From an uncultured Methylomonas sp. (GTDB lineage Bacteria > Pseudomonadota > Gammaproteobacteria > Methylococcales > Methylomonadaceae): a stretch of DNA of 64,000 bases. How positions within the stretch are numbered: the stretch's first letter is position 1; every line of letters starts with the position of its first letter. Of the stretch, positions 41,269 through 53,097 are shown in pieces. The stretch covers positions 124,001 to 188,000 of the forward strand of contig CAKZJE010000031.1 of assembly GCA_936941155.1 (NCBI GenBank), given 5' to 3'. The notes under the pieces are model-generated. The model did not search any database. It was not told the DNA's origin and saw nothing but the letters and a program-made list of their open reading frames with translations. Made by a program: the position numbers and the translations under genes.

Positions 41269-43569
41269 TTATTTTGACTCCATCACCCACACACCATCCC
41301 AACTATCATCAAGATTGGCGTTTTCAAGTTGATGACATCTCTCTAAATACATTTTGCAGATTTTATCGTCTGGATTTAAAGCCAGCGCATCATTAAACAA
41401 GGTAATTGCTTGTTGCCAATCACGTTTGCGATATTTGCTTAAGCCATTTTTAAACAGCGTTAATACTTCCACGATATGTGGAAACGTTTGTTCCGTGTGA
41501 TAATCCAAAACTTCATAAATCGCCACAGGTTTGGTTTTTCCTTTCACTACCACATAGTCCACTTCGCGAGTTCGGTAAGTGTCTTTCAGTTTTGCGTAAG
41601 TAAATTCACTGATTAAAATATGTGCGCCGTATTGTTTGCAAGCCGATTCTAGTCGCGCTGCTAAATTCACGCCGTCACCGATAATGGTGAAGTCCATCCG
41701 TTTTTGTGAGCCAATATTTCCTGAAACCACCACATCGGTATTTAAGCCGATACCAATATCTAAAGGTAATTTACCTTCGTCAGCGCGTTTGGTGTTCCAG
41801 ATTTGCAATTCACGAATCATCGCAATCGCAGTACGCATGGCGCGGTCTTCATCATCATTATGTGTGACCGGAATGCCGAATACCGCCATAATCGCGTCAC
41901 CGATAAATTTGTCTAACATGCCTTCTTCTTTTTGAATGCAATCCACCATGATTGTGAAATATTCATTCAACAAAGAAACTGTGCCTTGCGCACCGAGTTG
42001 TTCTGTTAGTGTTGTGAAGCCGCGTACATCGGAAAATAATGTTGTACAAACTACGCTACGTCCGCCTAAAATTTCTGAACCACTGGCAACCAATTGATCT
42101 GCAATTGACGGATCCATATAGCGCGACATAGTTGATTTTAAACGCTTTTCATTACTAATATCTTCAATCACCAACATAAAACCGATGCGTTTTTTATCTG
42201 CTCCTAGCAAAGGTTGCACGGTTAAATTGACTGACAAATTCTGATCTTTCACTTCCAACTGTGCATCCATCATAATTTGTTGCTGCTGATGCTCTTCTAC
42301 AGTGCGGATTTTGTCCATAATCCACGCATTTGCGCCGGCGAAGAAGTTTTGAGCCGGTTGGTCTAAGATTTGTTCGGCAGTGACTTGTAAAATTCTTAAT
42401 CCTGCCGCGTTACAAGTGACGATTTTTTCCGCGCCGTCTAGGGTAATCAAACCATTCGACATGCTCTCTAGCATTGCCTCGTTATAGTTTTTCATGTTCT
42501 GTACGTCGGCGAACAGCTTGGCGTTTTCAAGGGCAATGGAAACTTGAGCAGTAAACGCGCGTAGCCGAGCTTCATCTTCATTACTGAAAGGGCCGCCGCG
42601 TTTGTTTAACACTTGCGTTACGCCAATGGTTTTCCCCTGTTTATTGATAACAGGCACGCACAGAATCGAGCGGGTGAAAAAGCCGGTTTTTTTATCGAAA
42701 GCGGGATTAAAGCGTAAATCCGCATAGGCGTAAGGAATATTAATACTTTTTTCGGTGGTAAATACCGCACCGGCAATGCCTAAATGATTCGGCAGGCGAA
42801 TTTGCATGGCTTCTAAACCTTGCCCGACTTCTGACCACAAATCGTTGGTTTTTTCATCATTTAAAAACAAGGTAGAACGCTCTGCATTCAATAAGCGTGT
42901 GGCTTCGCCCATAACTTTTTGCAGCAACGAACCGAGTTTAATATCGGCGGTGACTTCCGAAACTACATTGATAAATTCCATTTCTTGCTGACGACTTGCC
43001 TGCATTCGCTCAATTAATTGCGCACTTTCTAACGCTAAAGCTGCTTGGCTGGTCATCGCCTCAAACAAAGAGCGGTCGTCATCATTAAATTCGCCTTCGA
43101 TTTTATTCAGAACTTGCGCAACCCCAATAATATTGCCTTTGCCGGTGCGCACTGGCACGCACAGAATGCTTTTAGTAATAAAATTGGTTTGTTCATCCAC
43201 ATTGCGATTGAAATACGGATTGTTGTAAGGGTCATGGCTGATAATGCTTTCGCCACTGTTGTACACAAAGCCTGCGATGCCGGTTTTGTTCAGAATCCGA
43301 ATCGCACGATGTGCTGTGCCTTGTGCAAAACGTGAGTAAAGTTCGTTGGTTTCAAAATCATTCAAAAACAATGAGCCGCGTTCTGCATGAAGTTCTGTGG
43401 TGCACATTTCCATTAGCACAATCAGTACATCATCCAATGTATCTTGCGTGGAAATACGCTTAGAAATTTTTAATAAAATGTCAGCTTCACGCATCCATTT
43501 TTTTTGTTTAGCAGTTTCGGCAGCACTATTGCGTTTGACCGGAGTTCGGATTTCTGTTTTTTCAGTCAT
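41269..43569 (-). CDS. Adenylate cyclase, class III, with two GAF and a PAS domain
   Basis: A protein of 766 residues: GAF 1 (about 30-185), GAF 2 (about 205-350), a PAS domain (about 360-480), a class III cyclase domain (about 510-690) and a C-terminal TPR-like pair. The two metal aspartates are in LFSDVRGFT and FIGDAIMAVFG, and the specificity pair is Lys (in LDKFIGD) and Asp (in MDFTIIGD), so ATP is the expected substrate. No membrane segment. It overlaps the coiled-coil gene upstream by 8 bp. Confidence 0.94.
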   Translation of the reverse strand: MTEKTEIRTPVKRNSAAETAKQKKWMREADILLKISKRISTQDTLDDVLIVLMEMCTTELHAERGSLFLNDFETNELYSRFAQGTAHRAIRILNKTGIAGFVYNSGESIISHDPYNNPYFNRNVDEQTNFITKSILCVPVRTGKGNIIGVAQVLNKIEGEFNDDDRSLFEAMTSQAALALESAQLIERMQASRQQEMEFINVVSEVTADIKLGSLLQKVMGEATRLLNAERSTLFLNDEKTNDLWSEVGQGLEAMQIRLPNHLGIAGAVFTTEKSINIPYAYADLRFNPAFDKKTGFFTRSILCVPVINKQGKTIGVTQVLNKRGGPFSNEDEARLRAFTAQVSIALENAKLFADVQNMKNYNEAMLESMSNGLITLDGAEKIVTCNAAGLRILQVTAEQILDQPAQNFFAGANAWIMDKIRTVEEHQQQQIMMDAQLEVKDQNLSVNLTVQPLLGADKKRIGFMLVIEDISNEKRLKSTMSRYMDPSIADQLVASGSEILGGRSVVCTTLFSDVRGFTTLTEQLGAQGTVSLLNEYFTIMVDCIQKEEGMLDKFIGDAIMAVFGIPVTHNDDEDRAMRTAIAMIRELQIWNTKRADEGKLPLDIGIGLNTDVVVSGNIGSQKRMDFTIIGDGVNLAARLESACKQYGAHILISEFTYAKLKDTYRTREVDYVVVKGKTKPVAIYEVLDYHTEQTFPHIVEVLTLFKNGLSKYRKRDWQQAITLFNDALALNPDDKICKMYLERCHQLENANLDDSWDGVWVMESK

Positions 43570-43999
43570 GGCTTAACAAAGAGTTTTCTAGTTGCTCACG
43601 GGTCGCTTGGATAATTGCTTGTAATTGCGCAATTTCTACGTTGGCGGATTGTTGGAGTTGTTGTACAGCGTTTTCTTTTTCGATTTTGGCGGTTTCTAGC
43701 TGTTCGCGTAACTTTGCGACAGTGTCTTTTAACAGTCTAATTTCAGCAGAAGACGTGGAAATGGTTTGTTGTATTTGACTTTGCTGTTCTCTAAAAGCAT
43801 TTTCTAACGTGTCGCGCAATGTCGCAATGGTGACTTTTAAAAGACCGATTTCTTGGTTTGCAGCGACAGCTGCGGCTTGAACAGCTTTATCTTTATGGCT
43901 TTGGGCTAATTCTAATTCGTCACGCAAGACCTGAATAATGTTTTTCAGTTCGCGCACTTCGGTTTCAGATTGTGTGTGTTCGGTGGATGTTAAGTGCAT
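43562..43999 (-). CDS. Coiled-coil protein with 36-residue repeats, coupled to the cyclase
   Basis: A protein of 145 residues made almost wholly of a coiled coil. It contains four units of about 36 residues beginning EVRELKNIIQVLRDELE, EIGLLKVTIATLRDTLE, EIRLLKDTVAKLREQLE and EIAQLQAIIQATREQLE. No signal peptide or membrane helix. The gene overlaps the cyclase start by 8 bp, so the two are made together; a scaffold or dimerisation partner of the cyclase is plausible. I know no characterised homologue. Confidence 0.8.
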   Translation of the reverse strand: MHLTSTEHTQSETEVRELKNIIQVLRDELELAQSHKDKAVQAAAVAANQEIGLLKVTIATLRDTLENAFREQQSQIQQTISTSSAEIRLLKDTVAKLREQLETAKIEKENAVQQLQQSANVEIAQLQAIIQATREQLENSLLSHD

Positions 44000-46874: not shown

Positions 46875-48962
46875 ATGATTGAGAAACAAAAAAAGCACCG
46901 TTTTGCGGAGTCTGTAGGCTTTTCAGTACCTTATGTACGCGAATTAGTGCTACCAGTACAGTCTATCACCTTGGATATGGCTGTTCTTGATGTTCTGCAA
47001 TTGTTTCAAGACAATCCAAATCTTCCTGCCTTTCCAATTATTGATGCCGATAACAACTATTTTGGCATCGCCTCGCGTCGTAATTATCTCAATATTATGA
47101 CAAAAGCTTTCGCACGAGAGCTGTTTGCCCGCAAAGATGTTGTTTCCCTGCTGAAAATCAATCCAACTATTTTTCTTTCGCCAATGATTGCTCATGCAGA
47201 TGATCGCATTGACCAAGTGATTATGGACTTTTTAAGCAACGACCCTGAAATCATGTTTGAAGCTTTGCCGGTGATGGCGGGTGATGAAATTTTAGGCATT
47301 GTCAAAATTGCCGACATGATGTTGAAGCTGTCTGAGTCGCAAAGCTCCTTGATTGGCACAATGGAAAAACTGAGCACGCGCTTGAAAGAAGAAGTGGCAA
47401 GTGCCGCGACCTTGCAGCGTAACTTATTGCGCCCTGAACAAATTCATTTACCCGGCGTGCGTGGCTTATCAACACTGCTCACTTCCAGTGAAGTTGGTGG
47501 TGATTTTTATGATTACTACTGCATTGATGACCGCTGGGTGGTGATGCTAGTCGGTGATGTGAGTGGACACGGTGTCGCAGCGGGCACAATGGTGGGCGCG
47601 GCAAAAGCCGGTGTTAATCTGCTGGAAACTGAAAAAGAACGTGAGCCTCATAAAATTCTGGCGCGGCTAAGCGACACCATTTTAAAAACAGCGCGGCAAT
47701 CATTGTTGATGACCATGTTTGCAGTCTGTTTAGACACGCAAACTGGCGAACTTAAATATGCCAACGCTGGACATCAATTTGCGTATCTGTATCGCCCTAT
47801 CACCGGTACTTTAGAAGTTTTAGAACTTGGCGGAATGCCGTTAGGTCGAAATGAAGGGATTATCTATGAGCAAGGCGTGACAGAAATGGACGTTGGCGAC
47901 CGCTTATTTTTATACACCGACGGCATTGTAGAAGAAGAAAATTCCGAAGGTGAATGTTTTGGCTATGACAGATTAGAAGAGCTGTTAGCCATTCATGCAG
48001 AAGGTGATGCAGAAAACTTAAGAGATCGTTTGCTAGAAGGTTTAATTTCGCACATAGGACATACTGATTTTGGCGATGACGTGACCATTTTTTATATTGA
48101 ACACCACGAGAGAAACCAGAAAAAAGCCGCACATGTAAATTCTGATGCCGATGATTTTGAATTGGTACGGATTGTAGACAGAATGTATCGCAGTAACCCT
48201 GAACAGGCGATTTCCTCGCATATTGTTCGGCAAAACTTGGTGTTTTTGGCTGAAAAAAACTTCTCCGATTTAATTCCCTCTCTTGCGGCTCAAGGTGTGC
48301 GCCGAGTGCTGTTGCGTCATTTGCCTATTCACAATCAATTAGGTTGGAATAATCTACTGCGCCAACATCAAAAAGTCTGTAGTGATGATTTAGCAATGTA
48401 TCTGAATCGTCCCAGTCAACACCGCGAATTCCATTTTGCGCATAGCGATGATAAAGCTTTTATTCTTGCAGAAGTGGACGCGTGGTTACAAGAAACCACG
48501 TTTCCTAATCCAGACCGCCTAGATGCGGTGATTCTGATTTTAGATGAGCTGATTGAAAACGGTTTATTTGCCGCACCGCGCGATGGCAAAGGCAATGCAC
48601 TGTATAAAAAAGGCAGTGTCCGTGCTTTGCAAAACAGCGAAATGCTACGCCTTACGCTGTCTTATCAAGACGGCTTGCTCGGCGTTTCATTAATAGATAA
48701 CTGGGGCACGTTAACCCCAACGATTTTTCTCAACAGACTCTCACGCAATGTGCGCGGAATTGGCTTAGATTCTGGCGTAGGCGGTGGTGGTCTGTATTTG
48801 ATTTGGCGACTTTCCGACTATCTGCAAGTGCGTGTTTTGCCTTATCGACAAACGCAAGTCTGCGCCTTTTTAGACTTAAATAATCCTTTTGATCCAGAAA
48901 TTGAAAATGGCTTTCAGTTTTTGTATCACACCGAGGTTCATGAAACTGTTAATTCATTGTAA
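46875..48962 (+). CDS. SpoIIE-type PP2C phosphatase with CBS pair and ATPase-like C-terminus
   Basis: About 695 residues from ATG 46875 (a GTG at 46830 is possible). CBS pair (about 20-165, LDVLQLFQDNPNLPAFPIID), then a SpoIIE phosphatase (about 180-415) with GGDFYDYY, GDVSGHGVAAG, AGHQFAYLY, LYTDGIVEE and DDVTIFYI. The C-terminal third resembles a HATPase (anti-sigma kinase-like) fold with LDAVILILDELIENGL and GIGLDSGVGGGGLYLI. It is a partner-switching regulator whose target is probably the STAS protein encoded 11 bp downstream. Confidence 0.9.
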   Translation: MIEKQKKHRFAESVGFSVPYVRELVLPVQSITLDMAVLDVLQLFQDNPNLPAFPIIDADNNYFGIASRRNYLNIMTKAFARELFARKDVVSLLKINPTIFLSPMIAHADDRIDQVIMDFLSNDPEIMFEALPVMAGDEILGIVKIADMMLKLSESQSSLIGTMEKLSTRLKEEVASAATLQRNLLRPEQIHLPGVRGLSTLLTSSEVGGDFYDYYCIDDRWVVMLVGDVSGHGVAAGTMVGAAKAGVNLLETEKEREPHKILARLSDTILKTARQSLLMTMFAVCLDTQTGELKYANAGHQFAYLYRPITGTLEVLELGGMPLGRNEGIIYEQGVTEMDVGDRLFLYTDGIVEEENSEGECFGYDRLEELLAIHAEGDAENLRDRLLEGLISHIGHTDFGDDVTIFYIEHHERNQKKAAHVNSDADDFELVRIVDRMYRSNPEQAISSHIVRQNLVFLAEKNFSDLIPSLAAQGVRRVLLRHLPIHNQLGWNNLLRQHQKVCSDDLAMYLNRPSQHREFHFAHSDDKAFILAEVDAWLQETTFPNPDRLDAVILILDELIENGLFAAPRDGKGNALYKKGSVRALQNSEMLRLTLSYQDGLLGVSLIDNWGTLTPTIFLNRLSRNVRGIGLDSGVGGGGLYLIWRLSDYLQVRVLPYRQTQVCAFLDLNNPFDPEIENGFQFLYHTEVHETVNSL

Positions 48963-48973
48963 GGATTCCTATC

Positions 48974-50128
48974 ATGTTACAAATTCTACCTGCTCCTTCG
49001 ACGACCGCATTGCAACAATCATTTAATCTTGATGGCACGATTGATATTGAATCTATTTCTGCACTTGAAACTTTGTATGTTTTGCCAGAAAAATGCGTCG
49101 CGGAACTGGATTTTTCCTTAGTACAACGTGTCAATTCAATGGGTTTGGCGCAATTGCTGAAATTGTTTGAACATTGGCAAAAACGCGATATTCAAATTCA
49201 TGTTAGCAACACAAATCGCATGATTGGCGTGTTGTTTAAAATGACTGGACTCACGCGCTTTCTTGCCGCCGATGCCGCCCCATCGCCTGTTGCGACAGCA
49301 CCTGCGTATCAAATGGATCAAGGGGCTTACACTGGCACTGCCAAAAGTGACGGCAAATTGAAAATGTGGGTAAATGCGCAAAGCAGTCATCAAATGAATG
49401 GCTGGTATTTTTTCAATACTTATTTGCAACGCCACTTAAACCGTGAAATTCAATTGGAATTAGTACACGGCGCAATCAATGAACAAGACAAACATATTCA
49501 TGAAATGGATATTGTGTTCACCAAACCGTTTGAAGCCACGCGCTTATTATTGGAGCATCGTTTTCGCCCTTTATTGCGCCCAATAGATCAAACCGATGAA
49601 GTCACTTTGCTGGTGCGTGCGAACGATACGCGCCAAAGTTTGGCAGAATTTCAAGGCAGCAAAGTGGTAACAGCTTCTTCTGATAACTTTGTGTATTTGC
49701 TGGGGCGTTTCTTATTGGAAGAAGAAAAAGAAAATTCATCTGCTGCAAATTTAGATTATTTGTTTTCAGGGCATGATATTAAAGCCTTGCAGATGTTGCT
49801 GAAAAGCTCGGCTGATATTATGTGCATGTTAAGCGAGACTTATGAGAGTTTGTCTGGATTGACAAAAAAAATGCTGCGCCAAATTGACCAAAGCGAAACG
49901 GCATTTGCGTTCCATTTATTTTGTGTTGCGCCACATTGTGCGGAAATTGGCGAGGCAATGACAGAGGTGTTATTGAATATGAGCCAAGATAGTCAAGGGC
50001 GGCAAGTATTGGCGGATTTGAATATTTCGGGGTGGAGTAAGCCGAAACAAGATGAAATTAATATGCTGGTGATGTTGTTTAATCGCTATACCGGGCAGGA
50101 AGAAATACCTTTGAAAATAGCTGTGTAG
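48974..50128 (+). CDS. STAS domain fused to a PhnD-like binding domain
   Basis: A protein of 384 residues without signal peptide. Residues about 1-100 form a STAS domain (VAELDFSLVQRVNSMGLAQL, with the phosphorylatable Ser in VNSMGL), the anti-sigma-antagonist fold. After a linker, residues about 125-375 resemble a type 2 periplasmic binding (PhnD-like) domain (YFFNTYLQRHLNREIQLELV, MDIVFTKPFEATRLLLE) but in the cytoplasm. It follows the SpoIIE-type phosphatase gene by 11 bp. Serine phosphorylation by a cognate kinase and ligand control are inference. Confidence 0.78.
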   Translation: MLQILPAPSTTALQQSFNLDGTIDIESISALETLYVLPEKCVAELDFSLVQRVNSMGLAQLLKLFEHWQKRDIQIHVSNTNRMIGVLFKMTGLTRFLAADAAPSPVATAPAYQMDQGAYTGTAKSDGKLKMWVNAQSSHQMNGWYFFNTYLQRHLNREIQLELVHGAINEQDKHIHEMDIVFTKPFEATRLLLEHRFRPLLRPIDQTDEVTLLVRANDTRQSLAEFQGSKVVTASSDNFVYLLGRFLLEEEKENSSAANLDYLFSGHDIKALQMLLKSSADIMCMLSETYESLSGLTKKMLRQIDQSETAFAFHLFCVAPHCAEIGEAMTEVLLNMSQDSQGRQVLADLNISGWSKPKQDEINMLVMLFNRYTGQEEIPLKIAV

Positions 50129-52707: not shown

Positions 52708-53097
52708 ATGACTATCATGACAAAAATCAACAAATCTTCTTTAGCGATTGCAATCAGTGCTTTATTAATGTCTTCAGCTGTGTTGGCAGAAGAAGCAGCT
52801 CCAGCAGCAGCGGCTGCTCCAGCAGCAGTAGCAGCACCAGCAGCAGCTCCAGAAGCAGCTCCAGAAGCAGCAGCTCCAGCGGCAGCAGCAACAGATGCAG
52901 CAGCTCCAGCAGCAACTGATGCAGCAGCTCCTGCTAAAAAACACCACGTTAAAAAACACAAAAAACACAAAGCTAAAAAACACCACAAAGCGAAAAAAGC
53001 AGCAGCTCCAGCTGACGCAGCAGCGGCTCCAGCTCCAGCAGCTGACGCAGTAGCTCCAGCAGCTCCAGCTCCAGAAGCGGCTCCAGCAGCAAAATAA
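52708..53097 (+). CDS. Exported Ala/Pro-rich protein with a central His/Lys-rich region
   Basis: A protein of 129 residues: a signal peptide (about 1-27, SSLAIAISALLMSSAVLAEE), then an Ala/Pro-rich stretch (AAPAAAAAPAAVAAPAAAPE and more), a central basic region (about 75-97, KKHHVKKHKKHKAKKHH) and another Ala/Pro-rich stretch. The DNA is a run of GCA/GCT/CCA codons. It could be a nucleic-acid- or heparin-binding envelope protein or a metal-binding protein; unknown. The spacer 52412-52707 shows no gene. Confidence 0.8.
   Translation: MTIMTKINKSSLAIAISALLMSSAVLAEEAAPAAAAAPAAVAAPAAAPEAAPEAAAPAAAATDAAAPAATDAAAPAKKHHVKKHKKHKAKKHHKAKKAAAPADAAAAPAPAADAVAPAAPAPEAAPAAK

Follow-up and report, generated by a model that had tools for sequence, protein, structure and literature searches.

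In Pseudomonas aeruginosa, HsbR acts as both phosphatase and kinase on the STAS antagonist HsbA, whose choice of partner depends on phosphorylation at Ser56 (PMC5085249, in excerpt). Here we describe a gene pair of this kind from an uncultured Methylomonas sp. (the host), located in a stretch of 64,000 nucleotides (GenBank assembly GCA_936941155.1, contig CAKZJE010000031.1, positions 124,001 to 188,000; the window): a predicted phosphatase/kinase with CBS, SpoIIE-type PP2C and GHKL domains (the partner) and, downstream of it, a STAS domain fused to a binding-protein fold of the PhnD type (the fusion). The likeness to HsbR lies in the combination of both activities in one protein; HsbR is a response regulator, whereas the input of pairs like that of the window is CBS or PAS. 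HsbA is not known to have a PhnD domain, and no counterpart of its partners FlgM and HsbD was found for the window pair.

Phosphatase (PP2C) and GHKL kinase also share a chain in Rv1364c of Mycobacterium tuberculosis, the best match of the partner in the PDB. Rv1364c contains its own RsbV-like STAS domain, whereas the STAS domain of the window belongs to a separate protein with a PhnD domain. The PP2C domains of SiaA and RssB, both from P. aeruginosa, are related to that of the partner in sequence and structure, with scores of 52 and 39 bits for the partner against the SiaA and RssB models (NCBIfam cut-offs: 700); the kinase working with SiaA is a separate protein. The original prediction that STAS domains normally stand alone or occur in transporters was too strict, as the stressosome proteins RsbR and YtvA fuse STAS to a sensory domain. 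There the sensory domain is N-terminal (globin-like or LOV), whereas here the extra domain is a C-terminal PhnD fold. The same fold (Z 16-21) is found in AioX, ArrX, PtxB and PhnD, which are periplasmic and bind anions; the fused domain lies behind a STAS domain and has lost most of the contacts. Actinobacterial conservons combine a roadblock protein and a small GTPase in one operon (PMC13343842, in excerpt), as does a seven-gene operon described below. The hallmark of a conservon is a histidine-kinase-like gene, CvnA, next to those for roadblock, CvnC and GTPase; in the seven-gene operon, Pfam recognised no such kinase gene, and PAS and PhnD genes are present instead. On balance, we lean towards reading the window pair as a two-gene partner-switching module whose PhnD arm links it to this GTPase-roadblock-PAS module.

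The fusion protein and its predicted partner

The original prediction placed a CBS-SpoIIE-HATPase gene ahead of a gene joining STAS to a binding-protein fold, and Pfam and structural models bear out both open reading frames, which are separated by 11 bases. In the fusion, Pfam recognises STAS (3.6e-6, above cut-off) followed by Phosphonate-bd (PF12974, 5.8e-27). An AlphaFold model built with a 15-row alignment (A1) has a mean predicted local distance difference test score (pLDDT) of 80 and a predicted template modelling score (pTM) of 0.65, with pLDDT below 50 for residues 99-124. Foldseek matches this model to ArrX, XAC2383, AioX, PhnD and PtxB, and residues ~122-377 superpose on XAC2383, PtxB and ArrX with Z of 20.5-21.5 and root mean square deviations of 3.1-3.7. 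The two-lobed fold is thus intact in the C-terminal half, as expected. Because the STAS domain is N-terminal, we place the protein in the cytoplasm, again in line with the prediction; a PhnD-fold domain behind STAS does not point to export to the periplasm. A hydropathy scan was discarded as an export test: although it found no membrane segment in the fusion, the signal peptide of E. coli PhnD escaped it as well.

In the partner, Pfam finds CBS (residues 42-88, 2.2e-6) and SpoIIE/PP2C (235-425, 7.3e-41). The match to HATPase_c_2 (545-668) reaches only 0.07, below the cut-off; the GHKL boxes are nevertheless conserved in relatives. The closest PDB matches of the partner model (pLDDT 83.6, pTM 0.47) are the RsbU-RsbW domains of Rv1364c (3ke6), followed by RssB and SiaA. 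The metal-binding aspartates of PP2C are present in every partner that reaches them (Asp228 and Asp243 in 76/76; Asp364, Asp416 and Asp417 in 77/77), and the N, G1 and G2 boxes are equally constant (Glu573 and Asn577 in 78/78, Asp623 and Gly626 in 79/79, Gly651, Gly652 and Gly654 in 80/80). The phosphatase and kinase motifs otherwise show single exceptions only, such as Gly649 (79/80). From these motifs, we predict that the partner is a bifunctional phosphatase/kinase. Two types of partner occur, one of ~700 residues (with CBS in the window) and one of ~900 residues (with PAS in all four scanned); the partner at locus L113, of the longer type, additionally has a PilJ N-terminal domain. Among partners of at least 690 residues, a hydropathy scan places a membrane-like segment ahead of the phosphatase in 47/48 of the longer and 1/23 of the shorter type.

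In the STAS domain, Ser55 aligns with the serine of the MDSTGL loop of RsbV (6m36). Gly21, Asp24 and Asn54-Ser55-Met56-Gly57-Leu58 do not vary among the 15 sequences of A1, which were collected by BLAST or Pfam and not by STAS motif (rows from 22 fusion places in relatives, described below, plus L005; each needed a locus and a GW(Y/F) pattern, which excluded L018 and L021). The motif R(V/I)NSMGL occurs in 101 of 110 STAS copies from 82 loci, most of which were gathered with a motif of this type or a PhnD motif; six of the other nine copies were inspected, and all keep N-S-M. For loci L039-L118, the conservation of NSMGL and GW(Y/F)..NTY is partly due to selection, since the scan searched for these two family motifs. 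Given the conservation of the acceptor Ser55 and of the motifs for both phosphatase and kinase, partner switching by the pair, the role originally proposed for the STAS protein, is well supported at the level of sequence, and both activities of the partner would act on Ser55.

Distribution of the pair and a GTPase operon

The host carries a second fusion/partner pair on contig 75, with a fusion 42% identical to that of the window. A search of 61 relatives located the fusion at 22 places, spread over 16 genomes (rows read by eye), and a scan of named genomes confirmed 91 loci, of which 80 were kept. By title, the kept loci are mostly from Methylococcales (Methylovulum, Crenothrix, Methylobacter, Methylomicrobium, Methylocaldum), with others in Acidithiobacillus, Leucothrix, Sphaerotilus and Leptothrix. 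Of 369 genomes of the class, 19 gave any match and only the host and one other (G231) a match spanning both domains; the fusion is therefore rare outside the order. The resulting 81 named fusions (window included) are loci, not genomes, and several genomes carry two. By script thresholds, each has one PhnD domain, with a single STAS copy in 62/81; two (10/81) or three (9/81) STAS domains precede it in tandem at L042 (4772-6865) and 18 other named loci.

The phosphatase/kinase lies directly upstream of the fusion in 77/81 loci by script, and in 79/81 with L113 and L116, where it occupies an overlapping frame; the remaining two loci, L047 and L059, begin at a contig edge. When 191 genomes of the order, each with a completeness of 95 or more, were examined, the fusion was found in 37 (rows read by eye). 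A partner match above 600 bits was likewise found in 37, and G499 has a match split in two, with 362 and 160 bits; of these 38 partner genomes, 36 are among the 37 fusion genomes. In G520, the partner is present and the fusion is cut by a contig end, and in G629, the 37th fusion genome, no partner was matched and the fusion lies near a contig start. Candidates for a conserved third gene were rejected: LpxD-, GlnS-, MoaE- and MoaC-like genes (assigned by eye) are found in only 13, 12, 9 and 9 of the 81 loci, and as nearly all are in the window's branch they look like shared synteny.

The fused domain resembles a clade of stand-alone PhnD-fold proteins of 248 residues (hhalign 4e-53) far more closely than canonical PhnD (3e-6). 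In the stand-alone proteins the first strand starts within ~5 residues of the protein start, residue 2 of the extracted domain pairing with residue 9 of mature PhnD, and they have the motifs GW...NT..Q and P(F/Y)(D/E)A in common with the fused domains. Of the 80 fused domains, 26 were placed in a tree together with 32 stand-alone and 21 canonical domains, the last gathered with E. coli PhnD only and thus lacking PtxB- or AioX-like rows. Fused domains form one clade (99/100) and 29 stand-alone domains another (97/96), with the stand-alone domains of L121, L122 and L139 beside the fused clade at weak support (85/53). On this evidence, the fused domain has its nearest relatives among cytoplasmic PhnD proteins that are associated with a GTPase/roadblock operon. 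The PhnD gene of L121 adjoins an SCP-2 gene; such a neighbour is known from a single genome, G086 (L156, 5906-7140), in which a cytoplasmic PhnD gene directly follows a gene of the SCP-2 sterol-transfer family.

The operon has the order A (~246 residues), B (~407), small GTPase (178), D (211), Roadblock/LC7 (120), PAS (160) and, last, stand-alone PhnD (248). In the copies scanned, A, B and D matched no Pfam family above cut-off, and no description of such an operon was found in the openly licensed PubMed Central literature searched. All seven genes were found by script in L091, L141, L142, L143, L146 and L153, and the host carries a complete operon on contig 27 (L162, 6378-11421). In other regions the script found it partial; L156 has only PhnD, with a TatD-like gene, and L157 and L158 have none of the genes. 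At two loci operon and pair are joined. In L091 (2043-10813; its sequence shows it to belong to genome G019) the pair sits between D and LC7, and in L095 (on the same contig as G038:C67) it lies directly before A-B-GTPase-D-LC7, with PAS and stand-alone PhnD absent after. At L080, an LC7 gene is found just upstream of the pair.

Some further features of these regions are recorded here. In G011 (L191, 4627-7903), a B-like gene stands on each side of the GTPase. Upstream of the host operon, L162 756-2945 encodes a protein that, by eye, resembles a membrane adenylate/guanylate cyclase and has a CHASE2-like part. The host has two more GTPase paralogues (L196, 6338-6877; L197, 5187-5819), and the gene at L197 4529-4933 is roadblock-like by eye.

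Across the 191 genomes, the cytoplasmic PhnD domain (threshold E 1e-20) occurs in 93 and the GTPase (E 1e-60) in 88, while 98 have neither. All 88 GTPase genomes have the cytoplasmic PhnD domain, two of them only in fused form, and the GTPase is present in none of the 98 genomes without the domain. In counts that ignore relatedness, the GTPase occurs in 35/37 fusion genomes against 53/154 others, and stand-alone PhnD in 33/37 against 56/154 (two of the 56 partial, G005 and G021); by genus, stand-alone PhnD is found in 14/15 genera with the fusion against 13/28 (p 0.003). In G028 the GTPase is far from PAS and PhnD, so the co-occurrence is not only a matter of linkage. Four genomes (G011, G519, G037, G038) have GTPase and fusion and gave no stand-alone PhnD match. 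The GTPase runs of the first three contain no PAS or PhnD, several of them ending at contig edges and some also without LC7; completeness is 87% for G037 and 91% for G038.

Candidate roles of the PhnD-fold domain

In the mechanism we propose, the CBS-PP2C-GHKL protein would be kinase and phosphatase for Ser55, governed by an input domain at its N-terminus: CBS here and, in the paralogous branch, PAS following a membrane-like segment. Through its PhnD arm the STAS protein, itself under phospho-control, would dock on the G-protein module or report to it, and STAS-PhnD may act beside or instead of stand-alone PhnD. To judge by gene content and the two joined loci, a link to the GTPase module is most likely; we infer contact between the two, as well as the direction of the switch and any ligand. 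More broadly, and more tentatively, PhnD-fold proteins may have been drawn into the cytoplasm to become one core component of a proteobacterial Ras-like GTPase/roadblock switch; STAS-PhnD would then be the phospho-controlled form, connecting small-GTPase signalling with partner switching. In openly licensed PubMed Central literature, in which the pairing of partner switching with GTPase was not searched directly, we found no paper that links PhnD to partner switching or to GTPase/roadblock.

Several observations weigh against this mechanism. The cytoplasmic PhnD domain occurs without the GTPase in five genomes: at E 1e-10 no GTPase is seen in G606 and G612, which carry the fusion, and G010, G021 (partial) and G052 have stand-alone PhnD without GTPase at E 1e-60. 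A diverged partner occurs in G499, where no fusion adjoins it. The co-occurrence counts are uncorrected for relatedness, the pair is usually not beside the operon, and no neighbour other than the phosphatase/kinase is found at more than 13 of the 81 loci, many of which are truncated by contig ends. Finally, a target of the STAS domain (sigma factor, anti-sigma factor or other) was not found, as no recurring neighbour in the 81 loci fits.

The binding pocket bears on whether a ligand is involved. The AioX contacts Tyr88, Tyr131, Ser161, Ser163 and His192 are identical in PhnD, for which Gly65, Ser68, Thr128, Asn175, Glu177 and Asp205 are further named (PMC5908839, in excerpt). All eleven positions in E. 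coli PhnD hold a fitting residue. In PhnD numbering, we take the five shared contacts to be positions 47, 93, 127, 129 and 157. Their equivalents were read from a profile alignment of the fused domains, long enough in 80/82 loci, which at 12% identity may be shifted at single positions. Only the Ser127 position stays polar among the five shared oxyanion contacts (Ser 55, Asn 20, Asp 4, Thr 1). The other four are not conserved: Tyr47 and Tyr93 fall in gaps, the latter adjoining Glu209 (Glu in 80/80), Ser129 is replaced by Val in 74/80, and the His157 position holds Glu (47) or Asp (32). Elsewhere in the pocket, Thr128 is replaced by Phe in 76/80, the Glu177 position holds Lys (43), Glu (18) or Asp (10), and the Asp205 position Phe (44), Cys (17) or Tyr (11). 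Judged from these residues, canonical phosphonate binding is unlikely, and another ligand is possible via the conserved charged residues at pocket positions, Glu209, Asp/Glu268 and Lys270.

The original prediction saw an antagonist gated both by serine dephosphorylation and by a small ligand, perhaps phosphonate- or nucleotide-like. The serine-based switch stands, and the ligand is weakly supported because four of the five PhnD/AioX anion contacts are not conserved. We thus consider it unlikely that the PhnD domain binds a small cytoplasmic anion and by its closure alters access of the STAS domain to kinase or target. The fold is intact, the structure of XAC2383, one of the closest, was determined with ATP (5ub7), and the Ser127 position is Ser or Asn in 75/80, but both tyrosines are lost and, besides the changes at positions 128 and 129, His157 has become acidic in 79/80 and Asp205 Phe, Cys or Tyr in 72/80.

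Slightly less probable is that the domain is what remains of a worn-out binding protein and acts as a scaffold, for dimerisation or docking, unconnected with the GTPase module. Such a domain could lose most anion contacts, as seen here, and occur without the GTPase, as in two fusion genomes; the motifs held in common with the stand-alone clade and the near-complete co-occurrence with the GTPase argue against it. We rate marginally lower still the possibility that the domain senses a hydrophobic or lipid-like cytoplasmic molecule, to which the Phe and Val at pocket positions would be suited. The fusion model matches 7t1m, a 'bacterial sterol transporter' that we take to be BstB, at Z 18.5, but the sequence match is weak (E 0.26), and 7t1m was dropped as a sequence relative. 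BstB belongs to the PhnD family, comes from the methanotroph M. capsulatus and is a reported sterol binder (PMC10942540, in excerpt). The neighbouring SCP-2 gene in G086 would also fit a lipid, but this neighbour counts for one genome, and the charged Glu209, Asp/Glu268 and Lys270 are also at pocket positions. A role of the STAS domain like that of MlaB, in the regulation of an ABC transporter, is very improbable: MlaB is among the domain's PDB sequence matches and mlaB_1 of NCBIfam gives 24.8 bits, but this is below the cut-off of 90, MlaB reads RVDTGGL where the STAS-PhnD family keeps the serine, the neighbour is a phosphatase/kinase, the genes flanking the window pair (L,D-transpeptidase and methyltransferase, by Pfam) are not ABC genes, and no ABC permease/ATPase set was recognised by eye among the 40 commonest neighbour clusters of the 81 loci.

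Features of the window and implications

Coordinates of the gene pair and its domains within the window
Feature	Position	Strand	Length	Basis
CBS - PP2C (SpoIIE) - GHKL kinase protein	46830 (GTG) or 46875 (ATG)..48962	+	710 aa or 695 aa	Open reading frame, Pfam
STAS-PhnD-fold fusion protein	48974..50128	+	384 aa	Open reading frame, Pfam, AlphaFold model
STAS domain, residues 19-97, predicted phospho-acceptor Ser55 in RVNSMGL	49028..49264	+		Pfam, alignment
PhnD-fold domain, residues 134-360, cytoplasmic clade	49373..50053	+		Pfam, structure match, tree

Elsewhere in the window, the reverse strand encodes a GAF-GAF-PAS-nucleotide cyclase protein with a weak TPR match (41269-43569), which lies behind the gene for a coiled-coil-like protein (43562-43999). 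A short protein at 52708-53097 is very rich in Ala, Pro and Lys, and its start resembles a signal peptide.

Because the fusion is conserved in methanotrophs in nearly all of which the little-studied G-protein switch is present too, it probably relays an internal signal rather than serving phosphonate uptake. A conserved STAS antagonist with a cytoplasmic binding-protein fold would equip partner switching with a second input or with an arm for docking, and its co-occurrence with the GTPase-roadblock-PAS-PhnD operon may offer a route into the G-protein signalling of methanotrophs and other Proteobacteria. Matches to PF12974 that are labelled as phosphonate transport may include cytoplasmic regulators.

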